A DNA stretch of 64,000 nt from Palleronia marisminoris. Its GTDB lineage: Bacteria > Pseudomonadota > Alphaproteobacteria > Rhodobacterales > Rhodobacteraceae. The stretch covers positions 1-64,000 of the forward strand of contig NZ_FWFV01000004.1 in assembly GCF_900172315.1 (NCBI RefSeq), given 5' to 3'. Both the position numbers and the translations under genes were made by a program. The notes beneath the pieces are model-generated. The model ran no database searches. It was not told where the DNA came from and worked only from the letters and a program-made list of their open reading frames with translations. Position 1 is the stretch's first letter. Every line of letters starts with the position of its first letter. This document shows, piece by piece, positions 46,475-56,495 of this stretch.

Positions 46475-48583
46475 TCAGCCCTCGATCCGGGTCAGATCGG
46501 CGACGCCAAGGCAGAGCGTGCGGATCCGGCTGAGAAGGTTCAGCCGGTTGCGCCGCAGGATCTGGTTGTCGGCGTTGATCTGCACCGACTCGAAGAACAC
46601 GTCGATCGGCGGGCGCAGAAGGGCCAGCGAGGTCATCGCCGCGCCGAAATCCTCGTCAGTCATGGCCTTCTCGATCACCGGCTCTTGCTGGTCGAGTGCT
46701 GCGAACAGCGCGCGTTCCTCGTCCGTATGAGCATGCTTGGCGTCGGCCCCGAAGGAGTATTCGACGCCGTCCTTTTCCTCGGCCTGGGTGAGGATGTTAT
46801 TCGCCCGCTTGAAGCCTTGGACGAGGTTGGTGCCGTCCTCGGTCTTCATGAACGCCGCCAGCGCCCGCGCCCGCTTGACCAGCAGCGTCAGGTCGTCGGC
46901 GTTCGGCATGGCGAGGCAGGCGTCGATGACGTCATGCGGGATGCCCTCGTCCCGGAGGTGGACCTTCAGGCGGTCCTCAAAAAATTCCATAAGATCACCG
47001 ACAAGGACTCGATGATCGAACTCAGCGAGGCCATCGGAACGGTCGTGTCGACGCTCAATTCGAATTGACTCGTCGAGCAAACCGAATATCGCCAAACGCA
47101 GGTCGTTCGTCAGGATCAACCGGATCACCCCTAGCGCAGCCCGGCGCAGCGCATAAGGGTCCTTCGATCCCGTGGGCTTCTCATCAATCGCCCAGAAGCC
47201 CGTCAGCTTGTCCAGCTTCTCTGCCAGCGACACCGCAACCGAGACGGGTGCGGTCGGCACCGTGTCGGAGGGACCAAGCGGCGCGTAATGTTCGGCCACG
47301 GCATCCGCCACGACATCGTCGAAACCAGCACTTTTCGCGTAATAGCGGCCCATGATTCCCTGCAATTCGGGGAATTCGTAGACCATTTCCGATGTCAGGT
47401 CGGCCTTGGCGAGCCGAGCGGCCTGCTCGGCCTCGTCCGCATTCGCGCCAACCACCGGGGCCAACTCGCGCGCGAGGGCGGCGATGCGCTCGACCCGGTC
47501 GGCTTCGGAGCCCAGCTTGGCGTGGAAGGTGACGGATTTCAGGTTCCGGGTCCACGCGCCCATCCCGGCCTTGGCGACGGCAAGGTCGTTCTTCCAGAAG
47601 AACGCGGCGTCGGCGAGGCGGGCCGAAAGGACGCGCTGGTTGCCGTTGAGGATCGTCGCGCCGTCATCGGCCGTCTCGCGGTTGGCGACTGTCACAAATC
47701 GAACAATCCGGCCCGATCCGGGCTCGCGGACCGAGAAGAACTTTTGATGTTCGCGCATCGAGGTCTGCAACACCTCGGGCGGCAGGTCGAGGAACTGTTC
47801 GTCGATCGTGCCCATCAGCGTGACCGGCCATTCGACCAGCCCCGCGACCTCGGCCAGAAGGCCCGCATCCTCGACCACCTCGAGCCCCGCCGCGAAGGCG
47901 AGGTTGGCGGCGTCGGCGCGGATCGTCTCGGCGCGTTCGTCGGGGGACAGCATCACGAAGGCGCGCTTCAGCTTGTGCTGGTAGTCCTCGAAGGACCTCA
48001 CGCGGATCTCGCCCGGCGCCATGAAGCGGTGGCCTTCGGTCACGTCAGAGGAAACGATGCCGTCGATGTCGAGCGGGACAACCTCGTGCCCTTCGGGGCG
48101 TGTCAGGATGCAGACGATGCGGTGCAGCGGGCGCACCCAGCGCAAGGACCCAGCGCCCCAGCGCATCGACTTGGGCCAGGGGAAGCCGCGCACGGTGGCC
48201 TCAACCACCTCGGCCACGATTTCGGGCGCGGGGCGGCCCTTCTTTTCGATCCGGGCGAAGTAGGTCTCGCCCTTCTTGTCTGCGCGGACCTCCAAGACAT
48301 CGCGGATGACGCCGGCGCCGCGCAGGAAGCCCTCGATCGCCTTGTCGGGCGCGCCGACCTTGGGGCCCTTGCGCTCTTCGACCGTGTCGGGAGAGCGGTC
48401 CGTCAGCCCTTCGAGAGCCAGCGTCAGGCGGCGGGGGGTAACCATGGTGCCGGCGTGGGCGTAGGTCAGGCCGGCCTCGACCAGACCGTCCGTCACCAGC
48501 CGCTTGAGGTCATCGGCCGCGCGGGCCTGCATCCGGGCGGGGATTTCCTCGGAGAAGAGTTCGATCAGAAGGTCGGGCATCAT
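46475..48583 (-). CDS. glyS: Glycyl-tRNA synthetase beta subunit
   Basis: Large subunit of the alpha2-beta2 GlyRS, 702 residues. LLIELFSEEIPARMQ at the start, EERKGPKVGAPDKAIEGF, FFWKNDLAVAKAG, and GIMGRYYAKSAGFDDVV are typical GlyS segments, with a C-terminal anticodon-binding-like domain (DEALLTLLV-type region to the FFESVQINADN motif). Two ATGs are in tandem (48583 and 48580); the first overlaps the stop of the DUF6446 gene. Confidence 0.96.
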   Translation of the reverse strand: MMPDLLIELFSEEIPARMQARAADDLKRLVTDGLVEAGLTYAHAGTMVTPRRLTLALEGLTDRSPDTVEERKGPKVGAPDKAIEGFLRGAGVIRDVLEVRADKKGETYFARIEKKGRPAPEIVAEVVEATVRGFPWPKSMRWGAGSLRWVRPLHRIVCILTRPEGHEVVPLDIDGIVSSDVTEGHRFMAPGEIRVRSFEDYQHKLKRAFVMLSPDERAETIRADAANLAFAAGLEVVEDAGLLAEVAGLVEWPVTLMGTIDEQFLDLPPEVLQTSMREHQKFFSVREPGSGRIVRFVTVANRETADDGATILNGNQRVLSARLADAAFFWKNDLAVAKAGMGAWTRNLKSVTFHAKLGSEADRVERIAALARELAPVVGANADEAEQAARLAKADLTSEMVYEFPELQGIMGRYYAKSAGFDDVVADAVAEHYAPLGPSDTVPTAPVSVAVSLAEKLDKLTGFWAIDEKPTGSKDPYALRRAALGVIRLILTNDLRLAIFGLLDESIRIERRHDRSDGLAEFDHRVLVGDLMEFFEDRLKVHLRDEGIPHDVIDACLAMPNADDLTLLVKRARALAAFMKTEDGTNLVQGFKRANNILTQAEEKDGVEYSFGADAKHAHTDEERALFAALDQQEPVIEKAMTDEDFGAAMTSLALLRPPIDVFFESVQINADNQILRRNRLNLLSRIRTLCLGVADLTRIEG

Positions 48584-49080
48584 TGATCCTCGCGCGGCGG
48601 GCAGTCCTCGCCGATCTGGGTGCCGTCATAGGCGCGTTCGCCGCAATTGTTGAGCTGGTGCCACACGTAGCCGCGACCGCCCGGCAGGATTGCGACGACC
48701 CGGTCCACGCCGAATTCAATGTTCTTTTCGGCCAGGAACGCCTGCGCCTGAGCGCTTGCAAGCGCCACGCCGATTTCCTCGGCATCGAAGCAGTCGAACC
48801 AGAAGGGCGCGTTCAGCGGCACTGCGCCCTCGTAGGGCACGGCATCCACATCGGGCGTCAGGGGCGTGTCGAAGCAGGCGCGGAAGCGGATGGGCGATGA
48901 GTTCGCATCGATCGCCTCGATGTTGGTGGCTTTGGCCGGTATCTCTCCGGCCTCGGTTTGCAGGGCGAAGCCGCGGGGCGAGACACGCTCGTAGAAATAG
49001 TAGACCTGCAGGTAGTAGAGCCCCAAGGCGGCCACCACGGTCACCACGGCCAGAAGGATGGCGATGATCTTGCCGGTCAT
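48580..49080 (-). CDS. DUF6446-type membrane-anchored protein within the glyQS operon
   Basis: A 166-residue protein of unknown function. One N-terminal transmembrane helix ([20 protein letters not shown]) anchors a periplasmic domain with [38 protein letters not shown], and [20 protein letters not shown]. Cysteines at CFDTP, CFDAEE, NNCGE and EDCPP could form disulfides. It is coupled by ATGA overlaps to glyQ upstream and glyS downstream. Similar proteins sit at this spot in Rhodobacterales, by memory; there is no obvious link to tRNA charging. Confidence 0.75.
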
Positions 49081-50009
49081 TGCGCCGCTTCGGTTTCGGC
49101 GAACCCGCCCGCCTCGGTCATCAGGAAGGCGTCGGCGCATTGCTTGGCCAGTGTGCGGACGCGGCCAATATAGGCTTGGCGTTCGGTGACCGAGATCACG
49201 CCCCGCGCATCCAGGAGGTTGAAGATGTGGCTGGCCTTGATCGTCTGGTCATAGGCGGGCAGCGCCATGACGATCCGCCGCCCCGTGCGCGGGTCCACCG
49301 CGGGCCGGGACAGGAGGTTCGCGCATTCGGCCTCGGCCTCTTCGAAGTGGCGCAGGAGGACATCGGTGTTGGCGGTGTCGAAGTTGAAGCGGGCGTATTG
49401 CGCCTCGGCCTCGCGGAAGACGTCGCCATAGGTCAGCGGGCGGGGGCTGTCGGGCTTGTTGAACGGCATGTCCATGACGTGGTCGACGCCGAGGACATAC
49501 ATGGCGAGGCGTTCGAGGCCGTAGGTCAGCTCGCCCGAGACCGGGTGACAGTCGTGGCCGCCGACCTGCTGGAAATAGGTGAACTGGCTGACCTCCATGC
49601 CGTCGCACCAGACCTCCCAGCCAAGGCCCCATGCGCCCAGCGTCGGGCTTTCCCAATCATCCTCGACGAAGCGCAGGTCGTGGAGGTTCGCGTCGATGCC
49701 GATGGCCTCGAGGCTGCCCAGGTACAGCGCCTGCAGGTCAGTCGGCGAAGGTTTGATGATGACCTGGTACTGGTAGTAATGCTGCAGCCGGTTCGGGCTG
49801 TCGCCGTAGCGCCCGTCGGTCGGACGGCGCGAGGGCTGCACATAGGCCGCGGCCCAGGCGTTCGGCCCCAGCGCGCGCATGGTCGTGGCCGGGTGGAACG
49901 TGCCCGCTCCGACCTCCATGTCGTAGGGCTGCAGGACGGCGCAGCCCTGGCGCCCCCAGTAGTCCTGGAGGGCAAGGATGATGTCCTGGAAACAGGTCGG
50001 CTTGGCCAT
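49077..50009 (-). CDS. glyQ: Glycyl-tRNA synthetase alpha subunit
   Basis: Catalytic class II subunit of GlyRS, 310 residues. [60 protein letters not shown] and [17 protein letters not shown] are all diagnostic. ATG at 50009 removes 16 unlikely codons. It heads a coupled glyQ-DUF6446-glyS group, which probably includes ppdK. Confidence 0.97.
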
Positions 50010-50177: not shown

Positions 50178-51908
50178 ATGAAATCGAGAACCGCCATGAC
50201 CGCCGTACTGGCCAGCCTGGCCGCGCCGGCATGGGCGCAGGACACGTGGCTCCAGGTCGAGGCGCAGTCGAACGCCCCCGCCGCGATCGAAACCGCGCGC
50301 GAGTTCGCCGGTCAGATCGACGGGGTCGCGGCGTTCGACCTGAACAACTCGTCCTGGTTCGCTGTGGCCATCGGTCCCTTCACCCCCGAAGAGGCCGCGC
50401 AGCAGCGCCGGTCGCTCCGTGCCCGTCAGTTGATCCCCAGCGACAGCTTCACCACCGACGGCTCGATCTTCGGCGAGGCGATCTGGCCCGAGGGGGGTGT
50501 CGAAACGGCCCAGGCCGACACCTTGGGCGAAGCCGCCCGCGTCATGGTGCCCGAGGCCGAGCCCCAGCAAGAGCCGCAGGAGACGCTCGCCGAGGCGCGT
50601 GAGAGCGAGTCCCTGCTCATCGGCCCCGAACGCGAGGCCCTTCAGGTCGCGCTGCAATGGGCCGGCTATTACGACGGCCCGATCGACGCCGCGTTCGGCC
50701 GCGGCACCCGTGGGTCCATGGCCGAATGGCAGGCCGCCAACGGCTACGACGACACTGGCGTGTTGACGACGCAGCAGCGTGCCGAGCTTCTGGCCCAGTA
50801 CAACGCCGTGCTCGACGGGCTCGGCATGGCGAACGTCATCGACAGCACCGCCGGCGTCACCGTCCAGATGCCGACCGAGCTGGTGGCCTTCGACCGCTAC
50901 CAGCCGCCCTTCGCCCATTACGAGCCGCGCAACGGCGCGGACCCCCAGGCCAAGGTGCTTCTGATCTCGCAAGCCGGCGAGCAGGCCGACCTCTACGGGC
51001 TCTACGACGTCATGCAGACGCTCGAGATCGTGCCGCCCGAGGGCGAGCGCGAGCGGCGGCAATCGGGATTCACCCTGGTCGGCCAGGGCGACGACATCGT
51101 CAGCCACACCGAGGCGCGGCTCGAAAATGGCGAGATCAAGGGCTTCACCCTGATCTGGCCTGCGGGTGACGAGGATCGCAGCACCCGCGTGCTCGACGAG
51201 ATGCTCGCCAGTTTCGAAACGACGGCGGGCGTCGTGATGCCCGACGAGATGGGCGAACCGACCGAGGATCAAAGCGTCGACCTGCTGGCCGGGCTGGAAA
51301 TCCGGCGGCCCGAACTGGTCCGCTCGGGTTTCTTCGTGTCGCGTCGGGGGGACGTGCTGACCACCGCCGACGTGGCGCAGGGCTGCGAGCGCATCACTCT
51401 CGAGGACGGCATCGAAGCCACGGTGACGGCCGCCGACGCCGAACGGGGCCTTGCCCTGCTCGAGCCGGGGCAGGCGCTGGCCCCGCGCCAGCACGCGACC
51501 TTCCGCGAGGGCGTGCCGCGCCTCAACACCGAAGTCGTGCTGTCCGGTTATTCGTTCGAGGGGCAGCTCGGCGCGCCATCGATGACCTACGGCACCCTCG
51601 CCGCGATGGAGGGGCTGGACGGGGCCGAGGACGTGCGGCGCTATGCGCTCGAGGCACGTCCGGGTGACGCGGGCGGGCCGGTCTTCGACAATGGCGGACA
51701 GGTCCTCGGCCTTCTGCAGCCCGAGGGTGAACTGGGCCGCAGCTTGCCGGACGGCGTCGCCTTCGCCACGGATGTGGACACCATCGAGGGCTTTCTCAGC
51801 GGCGCCGGCCTGACCCCATCCACCGCGCCGCTGGGCGAGGATCTGCCGCTGGGCCAGATGGAGCGGCGCGCGACCGACATGACGGTACTTGTGGGCTGCT
51901 GGAGGTAA
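50178..51908 (+). CDS. Secreted peptidoglycan-binding protein with inactive trypsin-like domain
   Basis: A 576-residue secreted protein. Order of parts: signal peptide (1-20, ending AWA-Q), a SPOR-like repeat region (about 22-90), a PG_binding_1 domain (about 150-207, REALQVALQWAGYYDGPID and FGRGTRGSMAEWQ), a middle domain (220-375), and a trypsin-like domain (380-555). In the last domain the usual His site (TNAHVV-type) is TTADVAQGC with Asp398, the Asp site (FDLALL-type) is RGLALL with Gly424, and the Ser site (GNSGGP-type) is GDAGGP with Ala498. All three catalytic residues are lost, so it should bind rather than cut, probably at the cell wall. Divergent from glyQ. Confidence 0.85.
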   Translation: MKSRTAMTAVLASLAAPAWAQDTWLQVEAQSNAPAAIETAREFAGQIDGVAAFDLNNSSWFAVAIGPFTPEEAAQQRRSLRARQLIPSDSFTTDGSIFGEAIWPEGGVETAQADTLGEAARVMVPEAEPQQEPQETLAEARESESLLIGPEREALQVALQWAGYYDGPIDAAFGRGTRGSMAEWQAANGYDDTGVLTTQQRAELLAQYNAVLDGLGMANVIDSTAGVTVQMPTELVAFDRYQPPFAHYEPRNGADPQAKVLLISQAGEQADLYGLYDVMQTLEIVPPEGERERRQSGFTLVGQGDDIVSHTEARLENGEIKGFTLIWPAGDEDRSTRVLDEMLASFETTAGVVMPDEMGEPTEDQSVDLLAGLEIRRPELVRSGFFVSRRGDVLTTADVAQGCERITLEDGIEATVTAADAERGLALLEPGQALAPRQHATFREGVPRLNTEVVLSGYSFEGQLGAPSMTYGTLAAMEGLDGAEDVRRYALEARPGDAGGPVFDNGGQVLGLLQPEGELGRSLPDGVAFATDVDTIEGFLSGAGLTPSTAPLGEDLPLGQMERRATDMTVLVGCWR

Positions 51909-55706: not shown

Positions 55707-56495
55707 TCAGGGGCGGATGAACCTGGCGCCTGTTTCGGGGCGTGCGCCGCCGTCGGCGCTGCGCCAGAACACCCCGTTCGAGGCCGTCAGCTCTGCCCGC
55801 AGCGCGGGCAGCACGTGGGCGATATCGGCCCCGACCGAAACCTTGCGCCCGTCCGCCTCGGCCTTGGCAGACACCACCGAAACGACCTGTGGCGTCGCCC
55901 CGTCGAACCGCAGGACGGGCGCGCCGGACGAGCCGAAATCGACGTCGCAGGACATCACCAGCGCCCCGCTTTCGCGCGCCAGCACGCGGCATTCCTGTTG
56001 CAACGCGGGGCGCTCAGCACGGTCATGCGCATAGGAGACGATACCGATCCGGACGCCCGCCATCGCGCCCGCAGGGATCGGCGCGACGATGTGCGGATCG
56101 ACGGGACGGTCGAGCTCGATCAGGGCGATGTCGGCGGCGAGCGCCCCGGTCCCCTCCGCACCAGGCCTGTACCCGCGCGAGATGACCACACGCCGCGCGC
56201 CCCGCTCGGCATCCGCGCGGCCGTCGCGCAGGCCCGCGCGGAACACCAGCATCTCGGGGGCGATCGGGCCGCCGGCCTCATCCGTCACGCAATGGGCGGC
56301 CGTCAGCACCAGCCGCGTGTCGATCAGCGTGGCCGTGCAGAACCCCTGCCCCGCAATTTCGAGCCGCCCGACCGCGCGGAACGCCCGCACGTCGTCGCCC
56401 GTCGCCAATTGGCGCAGATCGCTGTCGCCGGCCGTCGCCACGGCAGGGCGCAGAAGGACAAGGGCCATGAGGCTGAGGGCTGCGAGGATGCGCAT
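55707..56495 (-). CDS. Secreted trypsin-like serine protease
   Basis: A 262-residue secreted protease: signal peptide (LAALSLMALVLLRPAVATA), TAAHC with His68, ADIALIELD with Asp122, and FGSSGAPV with Ser190. The three catalytic positions are intact. Four cysteines (Cys53, Cys69, Cys169, Cys183) fit two disulfides. It is periplasmic or secreted, and it is the intact counterpart to the dead domain at 50178-51908. Substrate unknown. Confidence 0.9.
   Translation of the reverse strand: MRILAALSLMALVLLRPAVATAGDSDLRQLATGDDVRAFRAVGRLEIAGQGFCTATLIDTRLVLTAAHCVTDEAGGPIAPEMLVFRAGLRDGRADAERGARRVVISRGYRPGAEGTGALAADIALIELDRPVDPHIVAPIPAGAMAGVRIGIVSYAHDRAERPALQQECRVLARESGALVMSCDVDFGSSGAPVLRFDGATPQVVSVVSAKAEADGRKVSVGADIAHVLPALRAELTASNGVFWRSADGGARPETGARFIRP

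Follow-up and report, generated by a model that had tools for sequence, protein, structure and literature searches.

A predicted, family-wide trypsin-like pseudoprotease of the Rhodobacteraceae with putative wall-binding domains and triad-bearing relatives

Few accounts seem to exist of trypsin-like pseudoproteases that have become fixed throughout an entire bacterial group, and MamO was the one clear bacterial case found in open-licence PMC papers. In MamO, the trypsin-like pseudoprotease domain has been retained to bind metal and to activate another protease (PMC4794232). A study of CenKR in Rhodobacter sphaeroides names envelope genes such as RSP_1880 (PMC9275681). An exact-word search of open-licence PMC papers found no account of the pseudoprotease described below. 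MarP of mycobacteria is an active membrane-associated serine protease with transmembrane helices. Its structures (PDB 3k6y, 3k6z, 3lt3) are among the nearest solved sequences to our protein, and membership of the MarP family was rejected at 30.7 bits against a cut-off of 250 (NCBIfam NF033740).

The gene lies in a stretch of 64,000 nucleotides from Palleronia marisminoris (contig NZ_FWFV01000004.1, positions 1 to 64,000), the whole of which is called the window here. It encodes a family-wide pseudoprotease with active cousins, which is a broader picture than the first-pass annotation of the window could show.

Domain plan of the protein

The open frame of 576 codons runs on the plus strand from an ATG at 50178 to a stop codon at 51906-51908 (Table 1). 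A SPOR-like region and a peptidoglycan-binding domain had been proposed ahead of the trypsin-like domain, and this arrangement was borne out by Pfam, for SPOR only just. When 25 orthologues were searched at E ≤ 0.5, the SPOR profile matched 17 of them and the PG_binding_1 profile all 25. In a full-length model computed from three sequences, which was otherwise discarded for its low confidence (pLDDT 38.6), the first 95 residues follow the order strand-helix-strand-strand-helix-strand, as in SPOR domains. The Trypsin_2 match spans profile positions 2-144 of 144, with a cut-off of 27.6 bits. The PDZ domain expected behind the protease part in the HtrA/Deg family was not matched at E ≤ 1 (Pfam), and a short tail carrying Cys574 is found there. 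Two features are new relative to the first-pass annotation: a domain of about 145 residues that separates the trypsin part from the wall-binding part, and the conservation of the only two cysteines of the protein, C403 and C574, as a pair.

Table 1. Positions of the pseudoprotease gene, its domains and residues, and neighbouring genes in the window
Feature	Position	Strand	Remarks
Pseudoprotease gene	50178..51908	+	576 aa; probably exported; match in 339/394 family genomes
Likely Sec signal peptide, residues 1-20	50178..50237	+	AWA precedes Gln21; read from sequence
SPOR-like domain, residues 24-80	50247..50417	+	Pfam SPOR 21.1 bits, cut-off 21.0; marginal
PG_binding_1 domain, residues 149-202	50622..50783	+	Pfam 39.7 bits, cut-off 23
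Middle domain, residues 207-350, probably Mog1/PsbP/DcrB-like	50796..51227	+	Predicted model, structure comparison
Trypsin_2 domain without catalytic triad, residues 383-512	51324..51713	+	Pfam 51.9 bits
Catalytic His site, Asp398	51369..51371	+	Codon GAC; Glu or Asp in 112/152 rows (Glu 72, Asp 40, Ala 15, Gln 13, His 1, and others)
Cys403, probable disulfide partner of Cys574	51384..51386	+	In 152/152 rows; also in active relatives
Catalytic Asp site, Gly424	51447..51449	+	Codon GGC; Gly in 136/147 rows, Asp in 3
Catalytic Ser site, Ala498	51669..51671	+	Codon GCG; Ala 109/152 rows, Val 19, Thr 9, Ser 3, and others
Cys574, conserved C-terminal tail	51897..51899	+	In 152/152 rows; also in active relatives
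glyQ, glycyl-tRNA synthetase alpha	49077..50009	-	Divergent neighbour; start taken as the ATG of MAKPTCFQ; name read from sequence
DUF6446 gene between glyQ and glyS	48580..49140	-	
S1-type protease, secreted-looking	55707..56495	-	Pfam Trypsin 47.1 bits

For residues 205-370 no Pfam family was matched. Residues 207-360 were modelled alone from three sequences (pLDDT 64.2, pTM 0.62), and a Foldseek search with this model gave no match at E ≤ 0.001; TM-scores were about 0.3 to 0.4, and the list was headed by PsbP, DcrB and SciW entries. Comparison of the same model by VIA-align gave, among its best matches, Z values of 8.6 for 3lyd, 8.2 for EagT6, 8.2 for 1vr8, 8.1 for DcrB, 8.0 for SciW, 7.7 for MTC28, 7.1 for LpqN, 7.0 for PsbP and 6.5 for Mog1, values in the range (6 to 8.6) that can reflect merely a common arrangement. 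Several of these proteins belong to one fold group, and judging from the predicted model the middle domain is probably Mog1/PsbP/DcrB-like. An envelope role is plausible from the likely signal peptide and the SPOR-like and PG_binding_1 domains, and the anatomy of the protein points to a periplasmic, wall-bound location.

Loss of the catalytic triad and relatives that retain it

According to the first-pass annotation, all three catalytic residues of the trypsin-like domain are replaced, by Asp398, Gly424 and Ala498. The codons and a clear alignment to intact relatives confirm this: LTTADVAQGC stands at the His site against LTNHHVVAGC in the relatives, AADAERGLALL at the Asp site against ATDADSDLALL, and PGDAGGP at the Ser site against PGNSGGP. 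Since neither a nucleophile nor a base is left, cutting is very unlikely.

The family loci were aligned in 159 rows (158 loci and the window), of which 156 contain the trypsin domain; three rows have no letters at the triad sites, because of a contig end (L058), a trypsin part in another frame (L069) or the lack of a trypsin domain (L079). Leaving out one active homologue (L081) and rows more than 90% identical gave 152 non-redundant rows, and none of the triad residues is kept in 145 of these, one in 7 and two in 0. Among the glyQ-linked rows with a trypsin domain (n = 144, including the window itself and the second copy of one species), 138 have no triad residue, 6 have one and 0 have two. 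By this alignment the loss is general among the orthologues, and none of those aligned has an intact triad; the intact homologue L087, described below, lies elsewhere in its genome. Thus, in the earlier statement that the fold is preserved while the chemistry is lost, the loss of the residues stands and is general, and the fold of the trypsin domain, given the pLDDT of the full-length model, is a reading from sequence profiles.

The GDxGGP loop around the old Ser site is nearly invariant in the 152 rows, with Gly496 in 147, Asp497 in 147, Gly499 in 152 and Gly500 in 147; position 497 is mostly Asn in the active relatives. When the 198 columns were ranked by conservation, the Ser site came 91st and the His site 112th, and therefore the replacements are not frozen, while the Asp-site column (35th) and Asp497 (16th) are well conserved. 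In one row (L018) the old His site does read His, probably through a chance return, in a domain that is otherwise dead (His, Gly, Ala).

A profile built from 25 sequences was run against 385 genomes of the class. At E ≤ 1e-25 it hit 33 of them; 28 of these hits lie beyond the family, and there the match covered the C-terminal module only. His, Asp and Ser are intact in 24 of the 25 loci read outside the family, and the 25th (L117) has a broken frame in which His and Asp are visible. By eye, all 25 have the first cysteine, and the 24 that are readable to the end have the second as well; a PG-binding-like part was seen in several active relatives. Inside the family, intact triads were found in L082 (genome G173) and L087 (genome G162), and G173 carries both a dead protein (L052) and the active relative. 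L087 matches the family profiles for the SPOR (6e-21), PG-binding (1.9e-21) and middle (3e-10) regions, and therefore an enzyme of the same plan with an intact triad exists. It is located elsewhere in its genome than the glyQ locus; its contig of 11 kb gave no match to GlyQ, and neither did the 11 kb around L082.

A tree was computed from 197 columns, excluding the catalytic ones, for 28 other rows and a sample of 67 from the roughly 155 dead ones (27 selected, 40 taken at random), leaving out L081 (the same gene as L087), L117 for its broken frame, and L085 and L086, which are HtrA-like. The 67 dead rows are split from the 28 others by one branch with an SH-aLRT of 98, and both L087 and L082 fall among the active rows, L087 grouping with the active relatives. 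The label 'intact triad' needs two changes on the tree instead of one, because L084 has His-Leu-Ser at the aligned columns (His-Ala-Ser in the other alignment), and in view of its own motif GADLAAIL this deviation is read as an alignment slip. The tree agrees with a single loss, and because it comes from a quick search, has no outgroup and includes several long branches, the direction of change is what we infer and not what the tree proves.

Distribution and the glyQ locus

At E ≤ 1e-20 a match to the protein was obtained in 339 of 394 genomes of the family, nearly all sampled at one per genus, and in 13 of the 14 genomes of the window's genus; 55 genomes had no match at this threshold, one of them from the window's own genus. 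Among the relatives, two have species names: Palleronia abyssalis (66%) and Salipiger thiooxidans (50%). Among 158 family loci collected, 152 either showed glyQ or had at least 1.2 kb upstream, and glyQ is the divergent upstream neighbour in 146 of them (including the window and the second copy of one species); five loci ending at contig ends and the active homologue L081 stand outside this count. No glyQ was present within about 1.4 kb upstream in L024, L032, L051, L135, L159 and L197. In the 1.5 kb 3' of the gene no downstream operon partner was seen (153 loci), and the commonest plausible genes there, on the opposite strand and named from sequence, encode a thiamine-diphosphate enzyme (49/153) and a TrkH-like protein (35/153).

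The surroundings of glyQ were read in 12 of the 55 genomes that gave no full match. A TrkH-like gene directly adjoins glyQ in G162, G001 and G029, and a thiamine-diphosphate enzyme gene does so in G109 and G379; as the same two genes lead the downstream groups elsewhere, these five sites are taken as empty. A trypsin-less relative, L208, sits by glyQ in G023, and the remaining six genomes, including G066 of the window's genus, have other glyQ neighbours. In the loci L230, L231, L234, L237 and L238, glyQ is found beside a TrkH-like or thiamine-diphosphate enzyme gene without the pseudoprotease gene.

The DUF6446 gene was considered as a partner and found unsupported, being present in 373 of 394 family genomes (and in 0 of 14 control genomes); of the 55 that gave no match to the pseudoprotease gene, 42 have it and 13 lack it. 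The set of 55, as well as one of these 13, was obtained by subtraction. An exact-word search of the open-licence PMC literature found no paper that names DUF6446. Its matches are weak in G162 (2.2e-23) and G001 (2.6e-26), which suggests that these genomes are early branches, and the empty sites between glyQ and trkH in both would fit a later arrival of a copy at that place. For G029 and G109, where the DUF6446 matches are strong, losses seem more likely.

Possible role of the retained domain and comparison with known systems

Mean pairwise identity over the 152 rows is 49% in the trypsin part, 49% in the SPOR region, 49% in the middle domain and 60% in PG_binding_1, and in the trypsin part of one close pair (L042, L043) dN/dS is about 0.10, with 18 silent and 5 replacing changes. 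Together, these identities and the ratio in this one pair point to purifying selection on the dead trypsin domain. Two loci beside glyQ, L079 (G289) and L208 (G023), have the SPOR-like, PG-binding and middle parts, with no trypsin domain in any frame of either locus, and therefore the domain is dispensable in some lineages; L077 (G094) is the reverse case, with the SPOR and PG-binding regions missing and the middle and trypsin parts retained. So the trypsin domain would be useful in most lineages and could be lost in some. In L208 two SPOR-region stretches are matched by the full-length profile, though Pfam SPOR fails to reach E 0.1 in this protein.

We consider it rather probable that the pseudoprotease is an exported, wall-anchored and non-catalytic scaffold or adaptor, which probably holds or senses its partners and does not cut them. 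A binding role is suggested by the kept loop, the kept cysteines and the steady conservation, and a scaffold or adaptor is preferred because no partner protease is linked to the gene. Sequences and tree support its relation to a widespread set of alphaproteobacterial trypsin-like proteases with intact triads, several of which have a PG_binding_1-like part and share its two cysteines. They also support the view that a branch of these, located beside glyQ, has lost His, Asp and Ser, and that its dead domain has been retained by purifying selection. The loss was presumably single and would have preceded the diversification of most of the family. SPOR domains attach to the denuded glycan strands of the division site, and the SPOR and PG_binding_1 domains may anchor this protein to the wall, probably where such strands occur. 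The C403-C574 pair would tie the C-terminal tail to the trypsin domain, and the GDxGGP loop, the acid at the His site and the Gly at the Asp site could keep a cleft-like surface that would bind a protein or peptide without cutting it. Together with the Mog1/PsbP-like domain, the whole may then act as an envelope scaffold or adaptor.

It is rather unlikely that the SPOR, PG_binding_1 and middle domains do the work and that the dead domain is only a folded, slowly eroding cap. Such a passenger would explain why L079 and L208 lack the trypsin domain at the glyQ locus and keep the rest, and why the Ser and His columns are more variable than the surrounding loop; moreover, 10 of the 55 match-less genomes match DUF6446 strongly (<1e-44) and may have lost the entire pseudoprotease gene secondarily. 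However, the identity of the trypsin part equals that of the SPOR and middle domains over the 152 sequences, dN/dS is 0.10 in the pair mentioned, the cysteines are present in 152/152 rows, and L077 lacks the SPOR and PG-binding parts and has the middle and trypsin parts.

We give still less credence to an active site rebuilt as a clade-specific pocket for a ligand, a cation or a peptide end at the division-site wall, formed by an acid at the His site (Glu or Asp, 112/152), Gly at the Asp site, a small residue where Ser stood and Asp497 where the active relatives have Asn. If this were true, the protein would be a family-wide envelope sensor derived from a dead protease.

Slightly more doubtful again is that the protein regulates an active envelope protease (DegP, HtrA or another), which its dead domain would pair with or activate; the action of MamO on MamE is a precedent (PMC4794232). 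The own genome of the window does encode DegP- and HtrA-like proteins with intact-looking triads, these being, by reading, its other Trypsin_2 matches besides the protease at 55707-56495, and the dead protein and an active relative occur together in G173 (L052, L082). On the other hand, no active relative of the group was found in the window's genome, and no protease gene was found to be linked to the pseudoprotease gene. The first-pass annotation had noted an intact trypsin-like protease nearby and hinted at a link. This enzyme is indeed there, as its Pfam Trypsin match and its motifs read by eye (TAAHC, DIALI, GSSGAP) indicate, and its triad looks intact; the link is unsupported, as among five other loci with at least 5 kb downstream (L009, L010, L202, L204, L205) the protease is found only in L009, at the same place in Palleronia abyssalis (57%).

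Hydrolysis through other catalytic residues is very improbable. The conserved acids at 398 and 497 do lie near the old site, but Ser is found at 498 in 3/152 rows and His at 398 in 1/152, and the cysteines, which relatives with an intact triad also have, more probably pair in a disulfide.

Apart from this gene, the window's genome may encode a second wall-binding pseudo-peptidase, L089 (G000:C11:198500-201500), a protein of 561 aa that matches PG_binding_1 in two stretches and, at residues 48-124, part of a caspase domain (24.0 bits, cut-off 21.4), although the caspase His and Cys motifs are not visible in it by eye. G066 has a gene similar to it (L090).

Returning to the described systems, MamO is likewise an alphaproteobacterial trypsin-like domain with a degenerate active site that is kept for non-catalytic work. 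However, MamO keeps His and Asp, with Thr for Ser, is related to HtrA, belongs to the magnetosome island and binds metal via two histidines (PMC4794232), whereas the protein described here is without all three catalytic residues, has predicted wall-binding domains, lies beside glyQ and contains a single His in its trypsin module (residues 379-576). That one His rules out a MamO-like surface di-histidine metal site. CspC of Clostridioides difficile is likewise a bacterial pseudoprotease with a signalling role, but is subtilisin-like rather than trypsin-like and acts in spore germination (PMC6636752). Also among the closest systems are the alphaproteobacterial PG-binding trypsin-like proteases (L098, L101, L103, L104, L106, L107, L109, L110, L082 and L083, and L087 with SPOR too), in which the C-terminal module, its two cysteines included, likewise follows a PG-binding-like part; they differ in that His, Asp and Ser are intact, and the SPOR and middle profiles are matched by L087 only. 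A pseudoprotease with predicted wall-binding domains is present in most sampled genera of a large family (339/394 genomes), and since active relatives exist, the original chemistry is open to testing along with the new role.
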